Source: Trissonchulus latispiculum
Taxonomy: Eukaryota; Nematoda; Enoplea; Enoplida; Ironidae
Direction of reading: 5' to 3'
DNA: 64,000 nucleotides
NCBI GenBank assembly: GCA_030248195.1
Contig: JASAND010020355.1
Coordinates: forward strand, 62,001 to 126,000
Positions 1 to 40,520 of the stretch are shown here, piece after piece (position 1 is the stretch's first letter; the number at the start of each line of letters is the position of its first letter). The translations under genes and the position numbers were made by a program. The notes beneath the pieces are model-generated. The model saw only the letters and a program-made list of their open reading frames with translations, was not told the DNA's origin and did no database searches.

Positions 1-1249
1 AGGTTTGTTACTTGTAACAGATGGTGAACTCTCCACCAATTCTACTAACTCTTTCATTTGTTTTTGAAAAGATACCGAAAACAAAGAAACAAAAGCACAG
101 TAATCAGTTGCTAGTGGTACTTTAATCTTGATTACCACACGTAGTTCCTAAAGCTTATAAAATGAAGACGCCTTAAGAATGTGAACGATGGAACCTTTGT
201 ATTATTTCAATGTGTCCTAAAATATACACGAAACTACACATACAAATTAATAGAATGTACACAGCCCTGAACGAACAATTGCTGAGAAAACAAACTTCCT
301 TGGAAGAATAGCGAGATTTGCTACAGGATCTGCTACGCTGAAATTGAAACGATGCGAAGAATGATCATGAAAAGTAACTTCAAATCATCATCCAATTCAT
401 AGAATAAAACACGGCCGCAGGCTGATTAAAGTTCAATGCATTTAAACGACATGCTTATCAGAACACTTAAAACACTGCAAAGCAAAGAAGGTAAAGATGA
501 AGAAATTAGCAGCAATAAATTACATTAAACGTTTTACAACATGCTTTTGGTTTTAGTTTTCAGAAGAAGGATAATTTAACACTACGAAACTGATTGAAAT
601 ATAATTTGAAGCATAGTTACACATTCTACAACAACCTGTAGACTAAAGTATGAAGAAAAACTAGTGTATGTGTGTGCGTAACGAATAGTCCAGGTAGATT
701 TCCTGGATACAAAAATTATTGGGTCATTAGAGAACGTAGATTATTATGAATGACTTTTGAGTTGGGTCCTCTCCAGTTAACAGCTGGAGGAGCCCAAATG
801 CTCCTGACATGAAAAATCCACCGCTTTCTAAAATTAAATATGTAAAATTAATAGCGCTATTATTATTATTATTATTACCTTCAGCTCCGTTATCCACCTA
901 TCCTATTTTTAGGACTACTAAGTTTGTTTTTTTTTGAAATCTGTAATTGCACATTAATAGACGTAAAGATAATTTGAAAACAATCCAAAATCAGTTTTTC
1001 AAAAACCAACGCTAAATTAAGAGATCCGACATCAGTTAGAAGTGCAGATAGTACAGTATTCAATAGTCCACAGAAAATCCAGCGCAATCCCTTAAAACCC
1101 TTGAATTTGATTAGGTTACTAAAGCTCATAAATCTGTTTATAAATACTAAAGTCTCACCAAAAAATCTGGAACCAAACTGTGAGCGCCTGTCCTGAGTTA
1201 ACTTTTGAAGGTAAACCACAGAAACTATATACCTTTAGAATCCTCCGCA
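1..1249. other. AT-rich stretch, no gene seen
   Basis: Only an (ATT)n microsatellite at 857-880 stands out. The open frame at 890-1219 has no recognisable feature or splice support. Confidence 0.5.
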
Positions 1250-3764: not shown

Positions 3765-3860
3765 CAGCTTTTTTCCGTAGTCGCTTTCCAGCAGGCCGGT
3801 TTTATAGAAAGGATTCAACCTGCAAACTGTTGTCGCAGGAAATTCTTGTCTTTGACTTAT
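3765..3860 (-). CDS. Second DEG/ENaC gene: post-M1 FPATTVC exon
   Basis: 96 bases, phase 0-0, acceptor TTGCTTACAG, donor GTAAGC. It encodes EFPATTVCRLNPFYKTGLLE and ends SDYGKKL. Length, phase and sequence match the exon at 37720-37815. The gene must continue leftward; no equivalent of the following finger exon is visible in 1-3764, so it is either beyond the window or lost. Confidence 0.92.
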
Positions 3861-4171: not shown

Positions 4172-4318
4172 CTGAGTTGCTACTGATACTGGGTAGCGGC
4201 AGTATAACGAAATCTGTCGAATAACATGTATTGATAGAACTACACTTGCGGTTAAGAAAGTTACCACACCAAGCCACTTGACGCTGCTATGAGCAGAAAG
4301 GAAATGTGCAGGATGTAG
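4172..4318 (-). CDS. Second DEG/ENaC gene: M1 exon
   Basis: 147 bases, phase 0-0, acceptor TGCTTTTACAG, donor GTAAGG, exactly parallel to 40374-40520. It encodes LHPAHFLSAHSSVKWLGVV, the M1 stretch TFLTASVVLSIHVI, then RYPVSVATQ. It shares the His-Pro replacement of the His-Gly gating motif. No convincing N-terminal exons were found between here and 12.4 kb. Confidence 0.88.
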
Positions 4319-14634: not shown

Positions 14635-14707
14635 CTCGTGAATAGGATATTCTTTTAGCTGAATGTAATAAGACTTCTGCATGTATACATTGACTGCAGC
14701 TTCACGA
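14635..14707 (-). CDS. DEG/ENaC exon before M2
   Basis: Acceptor GTATGTTTTTAG, donor GTAAAG, phase 2 in and 0 out. It encodes REAAVNVYMQKSYYIQLKEY and ends PIHE. It matches the family's N-x-x-x-L-x-V-Y-F-x-x-L-x-Y strand; from here to the GG before M2 the spacing is the same as in ASIC1 with no gap. Confidence 0.88.
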
Positions 14708-16253: not shown

Positions 16254-16270
16254 CCTTCAAAGTTCCATGT
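16254..16270 (-). CDS. Possible 17-base microexon
   Basis: Acceptor TTTCGTGCAG, donor GTAAGT. In phase 0 it encodes TWNFE plus two bases, and it is the only small piece found that carries the frame from phase 0 to the phase 2 required by the next exon. The resulting wrist linker is about 10 residues shorter than in ASICs. A longer exon may have been missed. Confidence 0.4.
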
Positions 16271-16434: not shown

Positions 16435-16483
16435 AATGTTCTTCATTTTGTACAATGTCGTAGTCACTTCATAATAGTACTCC
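16435..16483 (-). CDS. DEG/ENaC pre-M2 strand exon
   Basis: Acceptor TGTTCTAG, donor GTAAGT, phase 2 in and 0 out. With the previous exon it reads CPMPC-R-EYYYEVTTTLYKMKNI, matching the family's CPLPC-x4-Y-x-x-x-x-S pattern. Confidence 0.8.
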
Positions 16484-16688: not shown

Positions 16689-16734
16689 CGACAAGGCATC
16701 GGGCATTTGCACGGTAGACTGCTCATGTTAATAT
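16689..16734 (-). CDS. DEG/ENaC CxCPxPC exon
   Basis: A 46-base exon, phase 1 in and 2 out, donor GTACGT. It encodes INMSSLPCKCPMPC, the C-x-C-P-x-P-C signature at the end of the thumb. This short motif is nearly unique to the family. Acceptor is TATGCAG, without a long pyrimidine tract. Confidence 0.88.
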
Positions 16735-17133
16735 CTGCATAGTTCTTGTAATCAAGCAAGCAAGCCACTAAATAATTAATGATTAAATTACATTACATTA
16801 AAACCACATTAAAACTGCTATCGTGCACGAAAGAATAATTGTAAATGCGATGGTTTAACTGAAGTAGACCGCCATCAAGGAAAGCCGCTGTGTATCGCTC
16901 TACATCATACCATCCGCAATATTACACCTATATCCTCAAAATATCTAGAATGTAGTTTTGTGTGTTAGAAAAGTTGCGGATCGGTAGACACAATTTAAAA
17001 ATTTTGAGACAATCGATATTGAGACGTTTATATTTTAAAAACCTATAAAAGGTCATGCTAAGTCAAGTCGTAATGCTTTACTGGTCTAATGCTAAACTTC
17101 ATAGAGGCCTGTTTTTATAAACGAAGTTCTTAC

Positions 17134-17248
17134 GTTTTTGAAAACTAGAAATGCACGAAGGACTATCAGCACTGACAGCCTCAACTCTTGGATCTGAACA
17201 GTTACAACGAGCATACAGTTGACGCTGATAGCATGACAAATAACAAAT
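17134..17248 (-). CDS. DEG/ENaC thumb-domain cysteine exon
   Basis: Acceptor ATAATTTCAG, donor GTAAGA, phase 0 in and 1 out. It encodes ICYLSCYQRQLYARCNCSDP, the C-x3-C-x8-C-x-C thumb signature (CRIDCETRYIVENCNC in ASIC1), then a further cysteine in SPSCISSFQK. These cysteines form the ladder of disulfides in the thumb. Confidence 0.9.
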
Positions 17249-17394: not shown

Positions 17395-18252
17395 CTTCGT
17401 TGGTTAGAAAATAAGAAAAATGGACCAACCACAAAGTGTTTTCAGTATCAACAATTACTCAAATAATATTGACCTTCAACCTACCGTTAAACTGTAAACA
17501 GATTTTCCATACAAACTGTCCGTTTCGGATTCATAATTGTCAGTGCATGAGTCAAATGGTGGCCCTTTTCTGAATTCTGCTTTCTGCAAGAATGTTAAGG
17601 CACATTCCAAGAGGTGTTGTATGTCTGCACTAACTTAACCAATTAATTTCAATTATTATAATAAATTATTCATAGCTCCACCAAATTTAGGCGACCATAA
17701 CCATAACAACCTAAACCCAACCAGATATGACTTTATTATGATTGATTCGAACTAAGAATTTTCTTTCACCTCTATAACTCAGCCTTATAGTGTAGAGAGT
17801 TCTGGAGGTGCACGTAGTATTTTGAATTGTATTTAATGAACGCTTCGGAGGTTTTGACTTGAAAGCACGACCTCGTTCTCTTTAACGCAACACCCCAGTC
17901 GATTTCAAATGAGTGATAGTGACAGATCCAAATTTTCTATCTCTACGGATTTTGTGCCCAGATCGGGCACTGAATAATTGTCACGTGGAATTAACCGAGG
18001 CGTCATCAGGGCCGGGGCCAAACTGGCTACGCTGCTTTCGTCTCTTTGAGTACACGCATTGCCTCCATCCAGTAGGCAGAAAGACGGCCAACTCTTCGCA
18101 AGTTTCGGAATTAGCAGAATCACAATTAGCAATTATTTTCTGAGCGTGCAATGAAGTTATAGCACAACTGCACCGATTTATTCCTAGTTTATTTTGTGTT
18201 GTGGACACAGACAATGTTTGTTTCGACGCCAAGGCACAAACATTAACCGTAC

Positions 18253-18416
18253 CAATAAAACTTGCAGATTAACTGTGTATCCCTCTGGAACTGCAAATCC
18301 TTCTAATAACGGGAACGGCTGTTTGCTTTGATGGTGGACTACCACTGTCGTGCTACTTTTATAAGATCCGCTGAAAATATTATGTTCCTTTGGAGATTTC
18401 AGTTTCACATGTAGTC
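18253..18416 (-). CDS. DEG/ENaC palm/beta-ball exon
   Basis: Acceptor TGGATTTTAG, donor GTACGG, phase 1 in and 0 out. It encodes GLHVKLKSP, then STTVVVHHQSKQPFPLLEGF and AVPEGYTVNL. These match the family's GL.L.L, V.IH....PFP and PG....I.L strands closely. Confidence 0.92.
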
Positions 18417-19432: not shown

Positions 19433-19518
19433 CGTTTAGCTCTCCTGGCTGATTATGCGCTGACTCGCTGGATATGGTTACACAGTCCCCATAACTTGGA
19501 TCTTGGTAATAAAACTGT
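19433..19518 (-). CDS. DEG/ENaC exon with the YGDC motif
   Basis: Acceptor ATTTTGCTACAG, donor GTGAAT, phase 2 in and 1 out. It encodes QFYYQDPSYGDCVTISS, the family's Y-G-x-C-x-T/x motif (YGNCYTFN in most members), and ends GELN before the next exon's GLHVKL, giving the expected N-G-L...L strand. Confidence 0.88.
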
Positions 19519-21033: not shown

Positions 21034-21242
21034 CTGCGACATTCTGCTGACTGTATTTCGCAAAAAGGGATGAAATCATTTATGGTAGTTTGATTAAACC
21101 TTTCGTCCAGCGGTCCATCATCAGTCGCCATTAAACTGTGGTTAAGCACGTTGACAGCAAACTTCCACATAATTGTTGCGTATCTAAGTCTAGCTGCGTT
21201 ATCCTCAGAGTAAACATTCAGTGAATTCATTATAAGGTATCT
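21034..21242 (-). CDS. DEG/ENaC ectodomain exon with conserved C-x6-C
   Basis: Acceptor TGTCTTCTTGTAG, donor GTAAAT, phase 0 in and 2 out. The end, INDFIPFCEIQSAECR, gives the cysteine pair that in ASIC1 is C-x6-C in the sequence before the YGKCYTF motif, with identical spacing. The upstream part (AARLRYATIMWKFAVNVL) fits the helix that precedes it. Confidence 0.85.
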
Positions 21243-25461: not shown

Positions 25462-25622
25462 TGTTGAGTCAAAGTAGGTTGTAAAAACCGAAATGGGTGT
25501 TTCCTTAATAAGCCGCAGTACTTTCCGAACTACGTTATCACTACTGCTGCTTAATATCACGTCAGACAGCTTTTTGTGGAACGATTCTGGAGCCTTGTTA
25601 AAATCGTAGATCCATGAGTTAT
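25462..25622 (-). CDS. DEG/ENaC finger domain after the inserted modules
   Basis: Acceptor TTTTTTGCAG, donor GTGAGT, phase 1 in and 0 out. It encodes NSWIYDFNKAPESFHKKLSD and continues VRKVLRLIKETPISVF. It has no module signature and looks helical and charged, as expected for the remaining finger helices. It returns the frame from module phase 1 to channel phase 0. Confidence 0.8.
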
Positions 25623-26318
25623 CTGCAAAAAACATTTAGTATATATATCCTTCTTTTGAACTGTAGGCCCATCCTGACATGTGCAGGAGGGATTTTTGGT
25701 TTTGGTGGTTTGGTGGGATCTTTTTAGATTTTCAGGATTTTTCCGGATTTTTAGCCAAAAACGGAAAACCAGATTCAGGAGGGTGAGATATTACACTGGA
25801 CGGGTGAGCTCTTTGTCTGGGAAGAACGGAACCCCCCCCCCTCAGGCACATGCATGGGTCCATCATGAAGAGCACCTATGAAAATTACAACTGATCTGTA
25901 GAAATGTTATTCAAATTCTGTCCCCTGTGTTACATGATTTAGTGATTTTTAAAATACTACAGCCATTCATACAAAGACAAGTAGCCTATGAAGGCATGCC
26001 ACAGCTACACACAAGAACAACTTTGCCATTTGGTAAGAAGAAAAAGCCATTACCACATCAAGAAAAATGTGCAATACGTTCAAAAGTGTTACTGCCATGA
26101 TTAACTCAAAATCAAAAATGGTAATTTGACAAAATAATATTGGGCCTGTTGTACAGCTTTGTTATGTCGCTGTCGTTCACGACACCACAGCATGGTCCCT
26201 CACTGAACCTCGTCAATTGCTGCAATTGGCTTACTAGGCTTATTACGTATTCCTTGATTCGTACTACTTTTGCGAATTATTGTATTCCTTCAACATTATA
26301 CTACCCTCAATTACTAAC

Positions 26319-26479
26319 TTTCCGCTTTGCATGTCGCTTGAATGTTATCTTGAATTTGACAAATCACAACTGAGCTCCACACACATGGATAAATTCCGAC
26401 CATCGGATGTTTTTCGAATACATTGGCCGTTAAGCAGTACTTTTCAGAGTAAGGTTTGTATTTCCAATCCCCATGATAT
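26319..26479 (-). CDS. Inserted CTLD, closing exon
   Basis: Acceptor TCAATTATAG, donor GTTAGT, phase 2 in and 1 out. It encodes KYCLTANVFEK, then IYPCVWSSVVICQI, the final cysteine pattern of a CTLD, and a short tail NIQATCKAE. No WND-type calcium ligand is seen. Its 1-phase end joins the channel exon at 25622. Confidence 0.85.
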
Positions 26480-28448
26480 CTATAATTGATATATTTACAA
26501 TGAAATTGCATAAACGCTAAGTTTATATCATTATATTCTGACAAAATAAAAGAAATTTGAAAAAGGTTTGACAGGGTGGATAAAAGTCAAGCGTGCTCTA
26601 AGATATAGGGCGCCAATCAAAGGATATTGAGCGCAGAAACCAGGCAAGAAAGAATATTGATAGCAGGGACCAACCTTTGGTACAATTCCATTGGGCGACA
26701 GATTTTTGGTGAATTATCAAAGTAAGAAGATTTTGAGAAATTTTGGAATGATGAAACACAGGACTTCAGTCTCAATCTCTAATTCTGTACAATTAGCAAA
26801 AATTACAGAAAGGCGTAAAGATAGCTCCACTCTACCGGTACCAGTGAACTCTTAAACATACGTTTGGTACCACTTATGTCTTGATTTTACAGTTCTTTCG
26901 ATAATTGACAGTAACTATCAAGCCGCAATGTTCCTAATTTGGCTGAGTGATTGCATTAAATCTACCAAGTAGGATGGGAAAAACAGGTGGTTCAAAATTG
27001 TGCTGCACTGATGTGCCAATGTCTTTGATCTTCTATTGGTGAAAGGTCCAATACAGTCAAATTGGTTATCAATTGATAGTGGAACGGTGAACAACGTTTG
27101 CAGTAGAATTAAGGGGCTAAATGTGCACAGGGGGCGATAGCCTGGCAAACCTCGAGCAACTGTTGCAGTTGAATATTGGCCTTGTAAATACTTTAATTTG
27201 GTATGCTGGTCTTTCCTACTTTTCTGGGCTTGCATTCAGTCAAAACAGACCTTGAAGGGTTGATCATCGAAATGGAAGTTTGTGGGTTGAGCCTTAATAA
27301 CTCTAGCTCAGCTTGATTCCTTTTGAACTGAAATTATTTCCTTGTTTTTGTTTGAGAACCTATAAAATAAGGACCTATAAAATTGAATTGAAATTGAAAG
27401 CCTTACGCTAGTTCCGTTCCTTCCGGGTAGTGCTCAATTTTAAATATTTTTATTTTAATTAATTCTTAATCCTTTGCAAAGCAGCTCTAACTTTACGAAA
27501 TATCACATTTTCATGCTCTTGTAGAAATTTAAACTAAACTTTATCAAAACAAACGATTTAATTAAGCGAAGCTAGAAGATTGTAGAGGCTCGTTTCATTG
27601 TGCGCATGTCCAAGCCCCACCGTCGGATTACCAACTGCAAGGTAAAACGGGCGAAAACTAACACAAGAACAAACGTCCTCTCAAAGAATACGAAAAGAAA
27701 ACAGACTTTCTACCAATAACATCAATATGAGGTCCACCCCGAAAGTCCAGCTTCAGCGTGACGAATTGAAAGGAGGACTAATCTCCCGCGAACTCTTAGT
27801 AACAACAAATTGTCCCCGCCCAATTTTGAGACGAAAGCATTATTAGCTGAGTCCGGACTTTGACCGTACACATCAGTATAATTTTAGTTTGACCTTTCAT
27901 GAAGCTAACATCACTAACCTTTTAGGGACTGGTTCAAAAATTAAAGCGTATATACGTAATAGGCGTAATTCCGTGTATAGGCTTTAGGATACGCTTTCAC
28001 AGCTATCACAGCACGAAAAACGTTTGGTTGATTCTGCAGTATTGAGAAATCTGAGGTTTTGAAAGATTTCTCGATTCATTTTTAACAGGAATCCCCAAAA
28101 GCTATTTTGTTGGTTCCATGTAGCGAATGAAATGTGGCCATTCTAAGTATCAAATTTATATATAGATATAATACGATGTATAAAGCTCTTTGCAGCTGCA
28201 CATATTGAGCAGGCTTTGCGTTTCAACGATAACCACCGCACAAAACGATACCACCTCCTCAATCCAAGTTGTTTGTATCTAAGGCTAAGCATAGCTTAGG
28301 GCGTTAAACGCTTTGGAACTATGCTTAGCTTCGACAGCATCAAACTCATTATAAGGTATTACGCTGTTAAAAATCCTGCTACCAAAAATTAGCCTGAAAT
28401 CCAGGATATTAAGCTGGATTGGATGGAATGCTTAAGCACATGCCTGTC

Positions 28449-29459
28449 TTAAGGTGCTGGTTCGGATATTTGCAGCAAATTTTGAAAGACTGTAATTTGC
28501 TCAATTTTTGGAGTTCGACGATAATTTTTATATCATCTTAAAGCTTAGAATGTGCTTGTTACAACTAGGTTCAGTATAGCTGTCTCATTTCAATTCTTCG
28601 GCTTGGACAACATGAAATTTGAAGTACAACTTGCAATAATATGAAAACAATTTTTGAACATGGATTTCTCGAAGTGTAGGAAAGCTAACGAAAAACGACC
28701 AGTTCAGGCTTCAAAAGAAACGTCTTCTCGAGGGCTATTTTTTCTGAAATTGTTTAACGAGTAAAGATGCTCAAGATTTTGAGAAAAACGTAAATTTTGT
28801 CCGACTTTTTCAAAATTTTCAAGTTTGGACGCTTATTTTTCTCGAACTGACAGACAAAACGCGAAACCATGAAAAATAGCCCTCGGCAATTGTCTCAAAA
28901 ATACGTGTGTAAAGCGGTTTGTTAAATTTATTGCATGAGTTGAGAGAAATCCGTGTTCAAAACAATCTAGTTGCGATTTTCAAAATTTCACATTTTCGCT
29001 GCTGTGCCAAGGCTGAGAAGCCGCAGAGAGCTCTCCATTGGACATAGCATGTCCTTTAGGACTACAAATATGGACAATACTTGACCGACGGACCAGCGCT
29101 GTTGAAGCTGTCGAAATCTTGCAATATTTGATTTTTCGAAAAATGGCCGGTTTTGGACCTCGAAAATCATTTTTCGCTGTTATCTTTTAAACCTTAAGAA
29201 ATCAAAGAATACTCTCAAGAGCAAAGTTGTAGGTCTTGGTGAGAGGGTTCGAATGGTTATAATTTCATCCATGTAGGGTGGCCACAGTGCAAGTTATGGC
29301 GGATTAAATCTAATTTCTCCAAAACTCAAATTTTCAAGCCGCGACTTTGCTAAAATGTTTTATAGGCTAAATAATGTAATTGTAGCAAATTTGAATGAAT
29401 TTCAACGATAATTGTGCTTTTAAGGCCCAAAAATACACGAACCCGAACCAGCACCTTAA
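28449..29459. mobile_element. TTAA-flanked non-autonomous element, copy 1
   Basis: TTAA at both ends with inverted repeats GGTGCTGGTTCGG and CCGAACCAGCACC. The 1,011-base interior has no transposase frame. TTAA target duplication is characteristic of piggyBac-type transposition, so this is probably a non-autonomous member of such a family. Confidence 0.65.
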
Positions 29460-29889
29460 GCACCTACCATATTCCGTGAAATTAAGCAAATACAATTTTG
29501 ATCCGCCCTATCTGCGGAGTCTTGCTTGGTTTGTATACTCAACTTATTTTGATAGACGCATATTTCGTTTTTACAAGGTTACATTTGTTTCTAAGCTAGG
29601 AATAAACCAGCTTTCGCTTTAGTGGTATAATTACAACAAGGCTAGCAACTCGTTGATCGGATAGGTCAGCCTTTGATCGATAAGTTAATTTTTAGCTCTT
29701 GAAGCACATACATAGGCCTTTTGTCACATACAGCGCAGTTGATTTGCTATTAATTTTTAGTTATGAGTAAAAGGCTGGGGTAGCTACAGTTCGCCTGCGT
29801 TCACCTGCAGGTCAGCCGAGCTCGAGGCGAGGTAGTAGCACAGTCAGGCCTCAAATGCAAACACGAGGACAAGTAAACTCAGCATGTGC

Positions 29890-30905
29890 TTAAGGTGGTG
29901 GCATCCTTTTGTGCAGTGCTTTTGTGGTGATTTTTTTGAAACGCTATAACTTTCGCAATTTTGGGAGTTGCAAAGAGCTTTATACATCGTATTAAAGCTT
30001 ATTATCTGTACATTCACATGAGCTTACAGAACTGGCAAAATTAGCAAAAAAATAGCAGAAATTTTCTGACGAGTTGACATCTAACAGGATGAATATAGAC
30101 CAAAAGGTTTTGAACATCGATTTCTCAAAACTGAAGAATCGGCCAACAGTTCTTTTTGTGCCGCGATATGAAGGACATATAGGCCGAGGGACGTTTTTTG
30201 GATTTGGCTCAGCAGGTCTTAACGTTTTAGAAAGTCGGCCAAATGCACAGTAACACGACATTTCGCAACTTCGCATTGAGTTTTCTTGCTACTCAATATG
30301 TTTTAGCCCAAACCAAGAAAAACGTCCCTCCGCAGAAGTGCGAATTTCGATTCTGCCGAAAATCTCCGGAATCCGTCGAGTAGTTTTTGAGAAATCGATG
30401 TTCGAAACAAAATAATCGCAGTTTTGCGAAAATGGTTTTTCGGCCAAATCTCTAGCTGAAAGCAATAAAGTCCGGCTAATAGGCATTCATAAAATGTGCA
30501 TTTTGACGATGTATTGATTGAGTATAACTAAGCCAATTTTGTCCTTAACATGTGGCATTAATTTTGGAAAAACTGATTTCCTCGAAAATGGCCATTTTTT
30601 GACCCTAAAAACAGATTTTTGCGTATACTGACTTAACCACTGGAGATAGCTCAAGGGTAGTAAGAGCAAAAATGTTCCTTTTTGAGTCCTCTTTCCAGCC
30701 ATATCAACCAATCCCGTGTCTTGTCTACCTACTGTGAGCTTAAGGCCAAAAACCAAAACTTTCTTATCTTTTGGCCTAAGAATACGGGACTGGTCCTAAA
30801 ATGTTAAGGAGCACGGAAATAGGTTATTTCGTAAGTTTTAGCCCTTTGCGTAAAGGATTAAAGCCGTAGGAGTCAAAAATACCCGAAAGGAAACCAGCAC
30901 CTTAA
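29890..30905. mobile_element. TTAA-flanked non-autonomous element, copy 2
   Basis: TTAA + GGTGGTGGCATCC on the left and CCAGCACC + TTAA on the right, 1,016 bases, almost the same length as copy 1 and about 430 bases from it. The interior shares AT-rich stretches such as CGAAAATGGCC. The right end lies 17 bases from the CTLD exon ending at 30923. A similar left end (TTAAGGTGGTGG) without a matching right end occurs at 41226. Confidence 0.6.
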
Positions 30906-30922
30906 GTATGGCTTAGACTTAC

Positions 30923-31057
30923 TTCATACTACAGCTATTTTCAGAAACATTCCACGGAGCTTCCCAGGTCCCGTTTATATGTTTTCCTGCCAAAGGTATA
31001 TAGCTTTTGAAGCCGTGGACAAGAAAGCTACGCCGCCCGTAAAATGAGTTATCCATG
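30923..31057 (-). CDS. Inserted CTLD, middle exon
   Basis: Acceptor CGCTCATTACAG, donor GTAAGTC, phase 2-2 and 135 bases. It encodes SFYGRRSFLVHGFKSY, then HINGTWEAPWNVSENSC, which fits the weakly conserved centre of a CTLD (aromatic start, a W and a P-W pair). The end of a TTAA-flanked element lies only 17 bases beyond its donor side. The main support is the exact phase and strong sites. Confidence 0.7.
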
Positions 31058-31818
31058 CTGTAATGAGCGAACGTAGACAGAAGAAAGTCAGCTGTATTAA
31101 GTTACCATCAATTCACTGTTTTCAATTTAACTAATATTTTTAAATGGTGACAGACAGGAAATCCCTCTAACTTATCTTGCTCTGAGTGCTTTTACTCAAA
31201 AAAGCGTGCTTATATTCGAAAGCTAATGATGATCTCAATAACTTTTCTAATAGAATTGTTTTTCTGGTATGTAGTACTTGCAAGTGGTTCAGCTCACAAA
31301 TGAAGCTTACTTAGCAACGACCATCTGGCTATTCTGGAGTCTTCATACCATCGAAATGTTGCGTTGCGGGAATGTGCTATTCTTTTGAAGGATGTAAAAG
31401 TTTGTTGTCGGCGCCTCGCGTAGAACATGAGAAGATTTGTATACTAAGTCGGCGTCTCTACTACAGGTGCAGAAAAGCAAACTAATCTGGGCTTTTGCAT
31501 CAGCTTTTCAGCCTAACGTTACCCTCGTAATAATAAAAAAGGCATCCAAAAATACAGATAAAAATAAAAGCTAACGAATGAAGACTCAACCATGCAAAGC
31601 CAGACTAGGTAAAAGGACAAAAATGACAGCTCAGTCGAAAAACATAAACCTACAAAAAAATAAAAACTTGGATTAAACATTTTTAGAAGGACGTACGGAA
31701 GTACCCCGTAAAGGTTTCGATTACCTAATATAGGTAATTGGGTTGGTTCTGGTACCCTAAGTGCAAATTTTTGGACACCCGCCCAAATCGATACAGTGTA
31801 TCCTTAATCTCGACATAC

Positions 31819-31932
31819 ACAAAATTGTTAATAAAATCCTCTGCTTGCTCCCAATCCACAAATGACGGAAGATGTGCTCCTTCGTCCATGCTCTGGCAGA
31901 TTGCATCACTTGGAAATGATTCAGAATCCAAA
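31819..31932 (-). CDS. Inserted CTLD, first-helix exon
   Basis: Acceptor ACTGCTTTTAG, donor GTATGT, phase 2 in and 2 out. It encodes DAICQSMDEGAHLPSFVDW and EQAEDFINNF, the A-x-x-C...GA.L.S....EE..F pattern of CTLDs. The frame stays open past the donor for about 30 codons, but those residues do not fit a lectin and the next exon at 31057 does. Confidence 0.85.
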
Positions 31933-32485
31933 CTAAAAGCAGTATCGCTTGTTGTTATAACAATAAATGTTATGAATTGGACAATAAAATAATTACAGCA
32001 TTAGTAAGTAATCATATTTGGATTCGATTGTTTGCTTTAATAATTTGAATAAGACTGGATTAGTGCAGCAACTTTTGATTAGAGTGCAGATTGTCTGTCT
32101 TTTGGAATTCTTCCAATAATAGCCATATATTATTGATATGAGATGCCAGATGTGGGGTGCCAAATTCATACAATTTTCGAAAAATTTCGGCATATATGTG
32201 GTAATCCTCTATTCCTTGCTGGTGCGGTGGTATGATCAGACCGTTTCCAGTTTTGTGACGCAGCGCTAATAAGTTTGTCATAACCAGTAAATAGTTAAAT
32301 TACACTACAACAATTAATAATTGCTAAATTCAAATGACTATGATGAAACCTAAATTTCACACACTAACAACACAACTACACAAGAATACGCACATTTACT
32401 TGTAGTATTCGTCGTCAAAAGTTAGTATTTACTTCGTACCAGATAATAATTTGCTACTTGATAACGTTGATGATCATAAATTAAC

Positions 32486-32900
32486 ATGGGTCGGGTCCCG
32501 GGGGGCTTGTCCCCAAAACATTTTGAGGGCGCTTGTACCTTGAACAAAAATTTTCAGGGGGCTTGTACCTCAAGGATAAATTTGTAAAATCTTTCGAAAA
32601 CTTAACGCTAATTTTACTAAAATTGGCAATTTTTTATCAACAATTGCAAAAAAATTTTTAGAAAAAATGTCAAAATTTTGCCCGATTTTCTCGAAAAATT
32701 AATCATTTTAGCTAAAAGATTACCGCGAGGCCGGAAATTTTTTGAAATTTTAGTATAAAAACTAATTTTTCCGGCTATTTTTGCTTACCCCTTGGCCATT
32801 TTTTCGTTACCCTTTGTCCCCGACGGCGGAAAGGGCTGGTACCTTGTCCGGGTTGGGGGGCTTGGACCCCCAGACCCCCTCGCGTTAACCTATGTTGATG
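32486..32900 (+). repeat. 410-base dispersed repeat, copy 1
   Basis: Shares its whole length with 45435-45855 in opposite orientation. Landmarks: GGGTCGGGTCCCGGGGGGCT at one end, GGGGGCTTGTACCTC, an AT-rich core with GCCCGATTTTCTCG, and CCGGGTTGGGGGGCTTGGAC before GCGTTAACCTATG at the other end. No coding content. Confidence 0.8.
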
Positions 32901-33671
32901 ATGGTCACTAACTTGATTACATAAATACTCTTTTACAGACATGGTATTTTTAAGCTAAATCGAACAGCAAACTGTTGGCAATTGATCTCGTAATATTTCT
33001 GAATGGGATATTAGTAAATTTCCAGAAACATGAAAGATGAACCGGTTATGGTTGTTAAGGTTGCGAGGTTGCTAAAACTGACTGGTCTAAAAATTTTTAG
33101 ACATAGAATCCAGGCTTAAGGGGGAGCTACCAATGGTTTGCCCCACCTTTGTCCGATTGGCCTACTTTTTGGCAAGGATATAGAGCATGGGTATGGTCAA
33201 AAAATATCGGGTACTGAGATCTCATCTGCCTTCCAGCCATGTGCAGCCATCGCGTTTATGTGCCCGACCCCCTCCCCACTTTTCACAACTACCGACATAA
33301 TTAATTAAAAATTTTTACTGACTGCTGGGCCTAAGCTTCTAAGCTGCTATTTGCCAATATGATTTGGCACATATACCCCTACCTCCAGAAAAATACTAGA
33401 CGTCTGTATCTTATCTGCATCTAAGGAAACTACTCTTCAAAGTTGAAGTTTCGGCAAAAATTAATTTTTGGCTAACGAAAGGAAACTTTTATTACTGGTG
33501 CGAGCTATAAGGATGTAATTTGGCTTTTACAGAGGCCCTGTAGGAGTACTCATTTGTGCCAAATGGCAAGAAATTCTGTCGCGTGAAAAAGCTTTTATGT
33601 CAACTTTAATCTTCAAATATTGCCAAACACACAGGCTTCATGTTTAATATTTCAGATTAGTCCTTGCCTAG

Positions 33672-34300
33672 TTTTGCAACCTCACCAGGGGCCTTGCGAG
33701 TACTAGACTCGACAACTAGATTCATGCTAGTTGTCGAGTCTAGTGCCTCAAGTGTATCATAAAACCCTCGCAGTCGAGTAGCTACTAGCACTCGACTTGC
33801 GAGTCTAGTTTCTCACAAGTTTGAGCACTAGTAGACCAATCGGGTTCCATAAAACTTTAGTCTTGCCTTGCTAGTACGCTACTAGCATCCGTCTACTTCT
33901 CTAGTCTATTTCGACTAGAGAAGTGATAATTAAAGTTTGATGACTTTTTTATCTTTTATCAAAATTGTCTCAAACTCAAAAGACGCACGTTTTTGAATCT
34001 TTTTTCGAATGTCTGCAATTTTTACCAAGTTTCATTGAGATTTGAATTTTATGCGATTTTTCACATGATTATGGTTATCTATTTTCTGGCGAACTCGCAC
34101 TCGCAGTGCTAGTCCTCGCACTAGCAGTTCTAGTTTGTCGAGTCGCCGCACTGGCTTAGCTAATTTCGTCGAGTCAAGCGAAAAGTTTTACGGTACACTT
34201 GACTCGACGACTAGCACTAGCATTGCGAGTTCTCGCATGCTAGTACCAGCATGCGAGTCAAAGTTTTATGGACTCTTAAAGACTTCAAAGACTCTTATTA
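33672..34300. repeat. Foldback element built from ACTCGAC/CTAG words
   Basis: Both halves are packed with short words (GACTCGAC, CTAGTACTAG, GCGAGT) in opposite orientations, around a centre of plain AT-rich DNA near 33930-34080. CATAAAACTT-like strings recur between the words. The layout matches the element at 39185-39795 although the words differ. Confidence 0.65.
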
Positions 34301-34304
34301 ATTC

Positions 34305-35040
34305 CTATGGTTATGGTTGTGCCACTAAGAAATATCTCGGGCCGGGCTCGTGCTCGGGACGGGCTGATTTCTCGATTCGGGCTCGGTTCGTGCTGAGACC
34401 GGCCCGAAGTCCGAGGCCCGAGTCAAGGCCCGAGCGGCCCGAATCGATTCACTGCAGCAGCAGCCCGAAAAGCTTAATTAATTATTAAAATAAGCTGACG
34501 AGTATTTGAAAAATAAAAGAAGCTATTTTAAGCATGCACAAATAATTACATGTTCAGAAATATAAATATATACTTTGAACATAAATATATATTTTTCGAA
34601 AATGAATTTGAATTTTTTAAAATATGTAATGAACGCGATGTTTTATTTTTCAAAAATTTGTAGTTGTAATAATAATTGTATGTAATAACCTTTGTAACAA
34701 GTAATAACAATAAGCAGGAATCAAAGGCGACGTATTTAGCTACCTGATACCTGTAGTCGCACAAAAAGGCATGACAAAGATGAACTCGCAATAGCTTTGA
34801 TGTCTTCTATGTAGTGTCAAAATTTCTGCTCCAGAATCAACCCTGACATTTTGGGCTGATGGAATGGCCCGAGCAGCCCGAGCGGCCCGACTAGGTTCGG
34901 GCCTGTGGACCTTCTCGGTTCGGGCCGCATGAATTGTTGCTCAGGCCGGGCTGGCCCGGGGCCGGCCCAACCTGAGCCCGAGCCTGAACCGAGCCCGAGG
35001 CCCGATTTCGGCTCGAGCAAAACCATACCTATGGTCACCA
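34305..35040. mobile_element. GGCCCGAGC foldback element
   Basis: Left arm about 34335-34475 and right arm about 34865-35010 consist of GGCCCGAGC/GCTCGGGCC words in inverted arrangement, around 390 bases of AT-rich DNA. The outermost parts carry CCTATGGTTATGG and CCATACCTATGG, also inverted. Related GC-rich word clusters without a partner arm lie at 48155-48290 and 57430-57600. Confidence 0.65.
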
Positions 35041-35258
35041 AGAGCATCTAATAATCTCTTGTTGAACGTTCAAAATTCATATATGCATTGCATTACGTAA
35101 GAAAGGAAAGGAGTGCTACTGAACAAGGGAGTGCTACGAAAAAATCCCAGCATAAGCAAAAGTGCTAAACGAAACTCAGCCGGTGTAATCAACAATGAAT
35201 TACCTTAAATCGAAATCGAATAACATATCTTTCACACTTGACACTTTCAAGCACTTAC

Positions 35259-35325
35259 CGAATCTCGCTTGACAGTTTGTAACAAGCTCTGTCTCCTCGT
35301 TCCCATCCGTGTGGACAGTGAAGAT
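35259..35325 (-). CDS. Inserted CTLD, opening exon
   Basis: Acceptor CTTGCTTCAG, donor GTAAGT, phase 1 in and 2 out. It encodes LHCPHGWERGDRACYKLSSE, the C-P-x-GW......CY start of a C-type lectin domain. It follows the kringle exon in phase and continues in the exon at 31932. Confidence 0.88.
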
Positions 35326-35818
35326 CTGAAGCAAGCAAGATTGGAAAAAACACCAGACGGTAATGGCCAGCCGACGAAAATTTCAACCGGTCAACAACAC
35401 TAGCGATAACATAACGTAGCATAACCAACTATCATTTCGAGGAAAAACTTTACTGATATCAGAATGTTGCAGAGCACCAAAATGGTATGTTTGGAAAGTA
35501 TTTGCCTGAGGTATTGCTTGAAATACAAGCACCAGAGGGCTGAGCACGTTTTGAAGACGAGATTTCGTTTTGATATTTCTAGCAAACAATGATTCCTAAG
35601 AAAAAATCATATTTTTTCATGACATCCAAACAACCTCATTTGATGAAATCCATCTACTAGCGAAAATTCACAAGCATGGAAAGTAGTCTGGACAGCGAAA
35701 TTTGTTCTTCAAAACAAGCACATAATGTTAAACGACCCCGGAACACTGATAAATTTTCGCCGACAATTTTGCTTGTTTGTCACCCAAGTTATCAGCACTT
35801 CATTGAGCTTCACGATAC

Positions 35819-36070
35819 CTGCATAACGTCTAAGCCTATCGCAGGGAAGGAAGCAGTAGTCAAAGCCGTCATCAGTGTAACACCAGGGTGCAGGTCGACC
35901 GTTCTGGTTTGCACACCCATGGGCCGTGGTGTCATTGTCATGCAACATATTGCCAATACAAGCTCTCCCAAGAAATGTAATGTTAGCAGAAATAGTTTTG
36001 ACTTGAAAGCATGCAGAGTCTGATTTCCAGCATTTGTTAATCCTGTCGATGCAGTCTTCTGCGTTTATAT
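35819..36070 (-). CDS. Kringle-type module inserted in the channel finger
   Basis: A 252-base 1-1 exon (acceptor TGCTTGTAG, donor GTATCG). The C-terminal half is a clear kringle: AHGCANQNGRPAPWCYTDDG then DYCFLPC, matching the NPDG..PWCYT....YC.LPC signature. The N-terminal half is shorter than usual (CFQVKTIS...GRACIGN) and is preceded by two extra cysteines (EDCIDRINKC), giving eight cysteines rather than six. Kringles are extracellular protein- or ligand-binding folds known from plasminogen, HGF and ROR kinases. Flanking exons are channel finger (0-1) and CTLD (1-2), so the module is in frame. Confidence 0.85.
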
Positions 36071-36419
36071 CTACAAGCAATACTTAACATTTAACACTTA
36101 ACACTAAACAACTTAACACTTACTTAACACAAATAAATTGTGAACACTAATTGCAAATTTTTCTTTATTTTATTTAAAGGTACTCTAGTTTTAGACAAAT
36201 AATTAATTACTTTGAGACATATCACACTGGAGAAGATACACTCGAGTACACCCAACAACACGGGTTTTCCTTGTGCCTTCGAGGATCTACTTTTACACTT
36301 ATTTTTAATGAGAATAATGTTGGAACAAAATAATTGGCGCACATTAAATCTAATAAACACAGAATTAGCACACATTTTAGCAAGTCCCTTGTCCAGATAT
36401 ACTTTTAACCAGGAAACCG

Positions 36420-36713
36420 TTGCTGAACATTAGCAATGTGCGAGCTTTTGATAATTCGAAGATGATTGACAGAGTTCGAGATTTCGACAAACGAATTTTT
36501 GAAAATCTAATTGATGGTAGCGGAACATCTGATTCCTGTTTGCGCAAGATAAACAAAGTTTGTGTCGGATTGAAATTGATCAATGTCTTTTCTAAGGTTT
36601 TAAATGAAGGCGTAAATTGGATTATGAAATTTTTCGCTGTGTGCACAACGGTGCCTACGGTTTATGGTTACATCTTAGGAAAAATCTTGTGGTTGCTAAT
36701 CGACAGTCAATAA
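36420..36713 (+). other. Unassigned 97-codon open frame on the plus strand
   Basis: The frame continues open upstream of its first ATG and ends at TAA. It has a charged first half (DRVRDFDKRIFENLIDG), three cysteines and two hydrophobic stretches (WIMKFFAVCTTVPTVYGYIL, GKILWLLI). It sits in the channel intron between 36842 and 36070, on the opposite strand. It might be a relic of a mobile element. I do not recognise it. Confidence 0.2.
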
Positions 36714-36841
36714 ATGGCATCTGTACCTAGTCTTTTGATTTGTTTACGTTGAGTTAGATCTGGTCTGACCTGAGCTTCCATCATAATCGGGAGTAATATT
36801 GACTGGTGTAAGGTGCCATTTTATAAACAAGCTGTAATTAC

Positions 36842-36929
36842 CTATTGGCTGCGCCATCAAGCTGATATTTACTTCAGATGACGAGGTTGCAAGCTGAATC
36901 AAGTCATTCATTTGTTCATAGAATATCGC
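36842..36929 (-). CDS. DEG/ENaC finger domain, first helix
   Basis: Acceptor ATTTTTAG, donor GTAATT, phase 0 in and 1 out. It encodes AIFYEQMNDLIQLATSSSEV and ends MAQPI. In position and pattern it corresponds to the first finger helix of ASIC-type channels. It is the exon that converts the channel phase (0) into module phase (1), joining straight into the kringle exon. That junction is the key evidence that the kringle is inside the channel. Confidence 0.8.
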
Positions 36930-37719: not shown

Positions 37720-37815
37720 CAGTTTCTTGCCAAAGTTACTTTCCAGCAAACCAGTTTTCCAATAAGGATTCAAACTGCACACCGTTGTTGCAGGAAACTC
37801 ATTATCGTAAATCAT
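37720..37815 (-). CDS. DEG/ENaC post-M1 exon (FPATTVC motif)
   Basis: A 96-base, phase 0-0 exon ending at a GTAAGT donor. It encodes EFPATTVCSLNPYWKTGLLE, the hallmark FPAVTICNLNPF motif of the family that forms the first palm strand after M1. The tandem gene has the same exon (3765-3860) with about 22 of 32 residues identical. This motif alone makes the family assignment secure. Confidence 0.95.
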
Positions 37816-40373: not shown

Positions 40374-40520
40374 CTCTGTTTCTACTGTAACAGGAAATTT
40401 GAAGTAGGATGAAATTTCCCAGCTTACACAAAAACATATAACTGCGGTGGTAATGCACAAAGACAATACTCCAATCCATTTCATAAAGTGGTGTGAGGCA
40501 ACAAGATGTACAGGATGAAG
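40374..40520 (-). CDS. DEG/ENaC first transmembrane helix (M1) exon
   Basis: A 147-base, phase 0-0 exon between TTATTATTGCAG and GTACGT. It begins LHPVHLVASHHFMKWIGV, continues through the hydrophobic M1 stretch (LSLCITTAVICFCVSW) and ends EISSYFKFPVTVETE, the usual Y-x-x-Y/FP-V-T end of M1. The His-Gly gating motif expected just before M1 is His-Pro here. The tandem gene has an exon of identical length and phase at 4172-4318, with His-Pro as well. Confidence 0.9.

Follow-up and report, generated by a model that had tools for sequence, protein, structure and literature searches.

A gene on the minus strand of contig JASAND010020355.1 (assembly GCA_030248195.1) of the nematode Trissonchulus latispiculum, here called gene A, is predicted to encode an ion-channel subunit of the DEG/ENaC family whose extracellular finger holds two inserted modules, a kringle and a C-type-lectin-like fold. 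We analysed a window of 64,000 nucleotides (contig bases 62001-126000) and searched the genome it comes from (733.8 Mb, 21,732 contigs). Between the gene A finger exons at 36842 and 25622 (window positions; Table 1), after the FPATTVC motif and before C-x6-C, five exons keep the reading frame: one for the kringle and four for the C-type-lectin-like fold. They form a block of ~243 residues that is symmetric, with phase 1 at both ends. The flanking finger exons are referred to as f1 and f2. Judging from sequence, we give an even chance to the reading that gene A is a DEG/ENaC subunit in which the kringle, an R-x-x-R linker and the lectin-like fold would together form a head that binds an extracellular protein and shifts gating.

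Nineteen exons of gene A could be placed, from the one that encodes transmembrane helix 1 (TM1; 40520) to the stop codon (13983), with phases consistent throughout; the joined frame is open, and all internal boundaries have AG before and GT after the exon. A preliminary description of this DNA had named seven of these exons (f1, the kringle exon, the four lectin-like exons and f2), and their coordinates and phases hold: AG precedes and GT follows each, and they join without a stop. The motifs that it assigned to the flanking channel exons (EFPATTVC, C-x6-C, YGDC, C-x-C-P-x-P-C and GxS, here GGS) can likewise be read in the sequence. In sequence like the local introns, the seven exons would all be open in the frames that the join requires with a probability of about 10^-6.9, a figure in which splice sites and homology are uncounted. 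A chance origin of the open exons was rejected on this frame probability, on the phases and constraint of a tandem paralogue (gene B) and on a second copy of gene A. We also rejected as a gene A exon a 99-base stretch (17394-17296) with a weak acceptor; it is probably no exon, because gene B has no counterpart and ENaC and ASIC align straight across it.

Channel identity follows from several comparisons. A gene A query that included TM1 but not the block gives a single match to the Pfam ASC profile that spans positions 16-455 of 455 (E 1.7e-52, 179.5 bits). A query with the block, without TM1 and with the rejected 99-base stretch matched ASC in two stretches (E 8.8e-37, 127.6 bits); because it lacked TM1 and held the rejected stretch, the difference in score does not come from the block alone. 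The closest match of block-free gene A in the PDB is ENaC delta (E 3e-23), followed by ENaC alpha and ASIC2, and the protein has the DEG/ENaC hallmarks of two transmembrane helices, FPATTxC after TM1, GxS in TM2 and a cysteine-rich thumb. The ASC profile, the paralogues and the second copy back the earlier proposal of one DEG/ENaC channel with both modules in its finger.

The second copy, on contig C10300, is near-identical to gene A and is probably the other haplotype. Eleven exons were compared, with 0 indels and 0 stops; AG and GT are present at 20 of 22 exon ends, and the remaining two lie beyond the alignment. In f1 there are 5 differences and no stop over 86 of 88 aligned bases, and the kringle exon is identical. 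The ratio of non-synonymous to synonymous change (dN/dS) is 0.25 over the 11 exons, 0.23 over the channel exons and 0.30 over the kringle and lectin part, the last from few changes (4 synonymous, 5 non-synonymous). Intron pieces are 77-99% identical, with many gaps.

Gene B, about 53% identical to gene A, repeats its order: FPATTVC, a finger stretch, the kringle, four lectin-like exons, f2 and the remaining channel exons. All 16 shared exons have the same entry phase, the gene B boundaries having been chosen with the gene A phases already known. Identity is 42% in the kringle and 53% in the lectin part. Between the two genes, the proportion of synonymous differences (pS) is 0.75-0.80, which is saturated, so that a reliable dN/dS is impossible, and that of non-synonymous differences (pN) is 0.24-0.36, the kringle and lectin parts included; the comparison points plainly to constraint on both modules.

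The genome appears to hold a small family of such kringle-lectin DEG/ENaC-type channels. Searched with gene A, it returned at least 61 matches, at least 17 of them on the kringle exon, on 13 contigs, with haplotype copies included; the search scores the best candidates only, and 9 of the 17 kringle matches were opened. At all nine loci the lectin exons follow the kringle in order, and channel exons follow the block in six (A, B, C10300, L039, L040 and L041). L044 and L046 have lectin exons 1 and 2, after which the available stretch ends 1.2-1.6 kb on; L045 has lectin exons 1 to 3, and its next 3.1 kb gave no further match at E 0.05.

We regard the kringle, on its sequence, as divergent but real. 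A profile of five kringle copies found 56 PDB matches at E<=1, the best being plasminogen (1.7e-15), and 55 of these are named for proteins that we take to be kringle-bearing; the possible exception is a factor XII fragment. HGF, ROR and Kremen were matched by the profile as well. The Pfam kringle model (PF00051) recognises two longer forms, L040 (29.2 bits, E 1.2e-6) and L039 (28.1 bits, E 2.5e-6), both below the curated 34.3; the gene A kringle reaches 12.6 bits in the whole protein, under the cut-off, and, taken singly, the A, B and L041 exons gave no Pfam kringle match. Eight cysteines are invariant in all five copies, and the last six of them stand in what we take to be kringle order. AlphaFold2 models of the kringle exon are of low confidence (mean predicted local distance difference test score, pLDDT, of 52.4 and 50.7), and a Foldseek search with the low-confidence model at 52.4 returned nothing at E<=0.001. 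Unlike the kringles of plasminogen, HGF, ROR and Kremen, this one lies within an ion channel, has shorter loops and carries a further two cysteines ahead of the fold. Where the kringle lysine site has its acidic pair, these copies have NPD-x-R or a similar sequence.

The second module is tentatively assigned as C-type-lectin-like by fold, on its cysteine pattern and PDB ranking. A profile of four copies gave 16 PDB matches, 14 of them lectin-like by name, the best at E 1.1e-4 over ~20 residues, in the N-terminal half only. Eight cysteines are invariant in the four copies; the module opens with C-x10-C and closes with C-x7-C, the spacing of long-form C-type-lectin-like domains. EPN/QPD and WND, the calcium-sugar motifs, are absent from all four. 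A sugar ligand is therefore unlikely, which disfavours that part of the preliminary description, where a sugar had stood among the candidate ligands. Because Pfam is silent, the cysteines and the PDB ranking fit and the sugar motifs are missing, we call the module C-type-lectin-like and not a lectin. Its N-terminal half and cysteine spacing are like those of the long-form domains of the PLA2 receptor family and snaclecs; compared with these, it is unmatched by Pfam and has neither EPN/QPD nor WND.

Comparison with described channels suggests that, by position, the block corresponds to the GRIP domain of ENaC. Alpha-ENaC aligns to residues 6-70 and 214-507 of the block-free query; numbered by order only, f1 would supply finger helix 1, and the later helices would come from f2 and the exon that follows it. 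GRIP lies between finger helices 1 and 2 and consists of a beta-strand core with inhibitory tracts; the authors who describe it regard it as unique to ENaC (PMC6197857). The four ENaC subunits (alpha, beta, gamma and delta) resemble gene A in having an extra finger domain, G-x-S in TM2 and R-x-x-R in the insert, whereas the insert itself differs, being a kringle and lectin-like fold in gene A. In FaNaC, FMRFamide is bound at finger helices 1-3, and the finger corner is described as important for gating across the superfamily and has been proposed as a site of matrix tethering (PMC11026163). The likeness to gene A would be ligand control through finger helices 1-3; the FaNaC pocket, by contrast, takes a small peptide and lies in the helices themselves, and the passages on it mention no inserted module. 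MEC-4 and UNC-8 share with gene A fingertip stretches that have no ASIC1 counterpart; those of MEC-4 are partly glutamate-rich, and the passages that describe these stretches mention no kringle or lectin fold for either protein (PMC2943245). With GRIP and these fingertip stretches already described, an insert in the finger is not new in kind.

Past the last kringle cysteine, all 8 copies spelled out (A, B, L039, L040, L041, L044, L045 and L046) have a linker of the form C-x-R-[LV]-x-R-[YF], whose R-x-x-R corresponds to the minimal furin pattern. RGD stands in the first lectin loop (gene A 35325-35259) of 7 of 8 copies, and RGN in that of L041; this is a possible integrin motif. Cleavage of ENaC at extracellular polybasic sites activates it (PMC8791634, PMC9163703). 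We propose that the block arose when exons were inserted into an intron of phase 1 and that it would lie between finger helices 1 and 2 on the trimer rim, like the ENaC GRIP domain and the FaNaC neuropeptide pocket. The kringle-lectin head would bind an extracellular protein, be it a secreted ligand, a protease or a matrix component, and this binding, or cleavage of the R-x-x-R linker, would displace the finger helices and thereby change how the channel opens. A single linker cut would free no tract and would instead release the kringle from the lectin-like part. In the reading that we favour, the protein-binding head would shift gating, and priming by a cut would be a second step. Sugar binding would not be the expected mode; the conserved linker and the GRIP-like position would favour a protein or protease over a sugar. 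More speculative, and in our view improbable, is a lineage-restricted family of receptor-channels in which a furin-type cut at R-x-x-R primes the head, the head captures a specific protein and gates a sodium-type pore, and tandem duplicates with diverging heads serve as a panel for protein cues such as contact, a wound protease or a microbe.

The kringle and lectin exons could instead be a separate gene nested in an intron of an otherwise ordinary channel, since f1 can join f2 in phase when the block is skipped, tandem duplication could copy a nested gene as well, and lectin exon 1 is preceded in its own frame by an ATG at 35422, the next upstream stop being at 35431. We consider this very improbable. 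Upstream of the kringle exon a stop occurs at the sixth codon with no ATG before it, and past lectin exon 4 a stop occurs at the second codon, so that a nested gene would need further exons; moreover, the block has phase 1 at both ends, its order and phases are repeated in gene B, and the order recurs in three distant copies in which channel exons were read.

Two other explanations accept the block as part of the channel. It might be a passive spacer or shield, or act in assembly or secretion only, with no control of gating by a ligand or protease. The divergence of the finger helices in sequence and structure across DEG/ENaC channels (PMC11026163) and the MEC-4 and UNC-8 stretches without an ASIC1 counterpart (PMC2943245) are in keeping with such a role, which we nonetheless hold to be unlikely: the modules are about as constrained as the channel (dN/dS 0.30 against 0.23, from few changes), and eight cysteines per module that are invariant in the aligned copies, together with a linker motif in 8 of 8 copies, go beyond a spacer's needs. 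A close rival, to which we assign slightly less weight than to the spacer, is that the block tethers the channel to the extracellular matrix or integrins for touch sensing. The RGD of the first lectin loop would suit this, as would the tethering proposed for the finger corner (PMC11026163) and the need of MEC-4 for matrix components in its localisation (PMC10148893); on the other side, RGD can arise by chance, one copy has RGN, and the residues may be structural.

Several observations weigh against the favoured reading of gene A. The eight linker copies are not all independent, L039 and L040 being nearly the same, and R-x-x-R may be structural instead of a cleavage site. Because f1 and f2 are phase compatible, an isoform free of the block is possible. 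Lectin exon 3 of L039 (3266-3410) is frame-broken relative to the near-identical L040, and gene B has an f1 acceptor without AG, a weak donor after exon b and no micro-exon that we could find; given these defects, some family copies may be decaying. Pfam Lectin_C (PF00059) matches none of the four lectin-module copies at E<=10. In the PDB alignments, neither f1 and f2 nor the first part of the exon that follows is matched to ENaC or ASIC, so that the finger helices are numbered by their order only. The start codon and N-terminal exon or exons of gene A, where the His-Gly motif that precedes TM1 in DEG/ENaC channels would be expected, were not located, and no N-terminal exon common to A and B was found upstream.

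That the combination is undescribed, as the preliminary description had it, stands within the limits of our searches, which found nothing in proteins or literature, the protein search being blind at the distance of known ENaCs. Among 5.8 billion proteins, gene A alone gave 3711 candidates, none at E<=0.001, and genes A and B together gave 2942, none at E<=1. The same database returned animal DEG/ENaC proteins for L001, another channel of this genome. ENaC delta in the PDB matches the same gene A sequence at E 4.5e-16, yet the protein search returned no ENaC; because its word step missed known ENaCs, absence there is weak evidence and speaks only against closer relatives. Gene models without the modules would also hide a kringle-lectin architecture in databases. 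Literature searches, with subscription papers and preprints outside their scope and papers seen in part, found no DEG/ENaC channel with a kringle and a C-type-lectin-like module. We therefore call the two modules in a DEG/ENaC finger undescribed within the searches made.

Table 1. Exons of gene A and gene B in the window, in the order of transcription
Feature	Position	Strand	Phase	Remarks
Gene A, end of pre-TM1 part and transmembrane helix 1	40374..40520	-	0>0	AG/GT; aligns with alpha-ENaC TM1 and gene B
Gene A, EFPATTVC	37720..37815	-	0>0	5' end from in-frame stop and gene B
Gene A, f1, first finger part, probably helix 1	36842..36929	-	0>1	
Gene A, kringle exon	35819..36070	-	1>1	C-D-R-L-R-R-Y at its end; gene B 42% identical; five-copy profile
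Gene A, lectin-like exon 1 (CPHGWERGDRACYK)	35259..35325	-	1>2	next after kringle in 9/9 opened loci
Gene A, lectin-like exon 2	31819..31932	-	2>2	
Gene A, lectin-like exon 3	30923..31057	-	2>2	
Gene A, lectin-like exon 4	26319..26479	-	2>1	C-x7-C end
Gene A, f2, further finger part	25462..25622	-	1>0	
Gene A, C-x6-C	21034..21242	-	0>2	later part aligns with ENaC/ASIC
Gene A, YGDC	19433..19518	-	2>1	
Gene A, channel exon	18253..18416	-	1>0	
Gene A, channel exon	17485..17583	-	0>0	
Gene A, thumb exon with CYLSCYQRQLYARCNC	17134..17248	-	0>1	
Gene A, CKCPMPC	16689..16767	-	1>2	
Gene A, channel exon	16435..16483	-	2>0	
Gene A, micro-exon of 17 bases, tentative	16254..16270	-	0>2	bridges its neighbours; no gene B counterpart found
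Gene A, channel exon before TM2	14635..14707	-	2>0	
Gene A, last exon: TM2 with GGS, C-terminus, stop TAA	13983..14273	-		aligns with ENaC TM2
Gene B, TM1 exon	4172..4318	-		match to gene A
Gene B, EFPATTVC	3765..3860	-		gene continues left of the window to contig position 44470
Gene B, f1, part	1..75	-		continues left of the window; expected acceptor without AG

Other features were seen in and around these genes. Upstream of the gene A TM1 exon, on the minus strand at ~41941-41820 and 40968-40850, are two exon-like open stretches, read by eye, with AG and GT flanks and matching phase 2; they do not join TM1 in its frame, no counterpart was seen upstream of gene B, and they may be part of the N-terminus or else belong to the end of a different gene. 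The intron between f2 and the C-x6-C exon contains, on the minus strand at 24855-24397 and 21926-21468, open stretches that resemble pieces of a non-LTR (long terminal repeat) retroelement and have no Pfam match, as well as degenerate repeats of the TTTGTTGCGCGGG type at ~22980-21950 (by eye). A detached copy of the family's last exon, 64-68% identical, lies on the minus strand at 9222-8990; no other channel exon matched between it and the gene B TM1 exon, and its sequence reads as a gene fragment. Rfam found nothing at gathering scores over the window. Elsewhere in the genome there are at least 104 other ASC matches, many of them intronless open frames of 400-600 residues, some clustered (C19852, C856 and C400). 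The closest relatives of one such match, L001, are unnamed assembled sequences (40-43%), then nematode proteins (38%).

How DEG/ENaC channels gain new stimuli is an open question, and the finger takes part in gating by peptides, protons and proteases and, as has been proposed, by force. Here a symmetric 1-1 block would have been shuffled as exons into the middle of a channel's extracellular domain, not onto an end. A natural family with two foldable modules in the finger would offer a clean test of what the channel senses, and the kringle-lectin modules may make these channels responsive to an extracellular protein.

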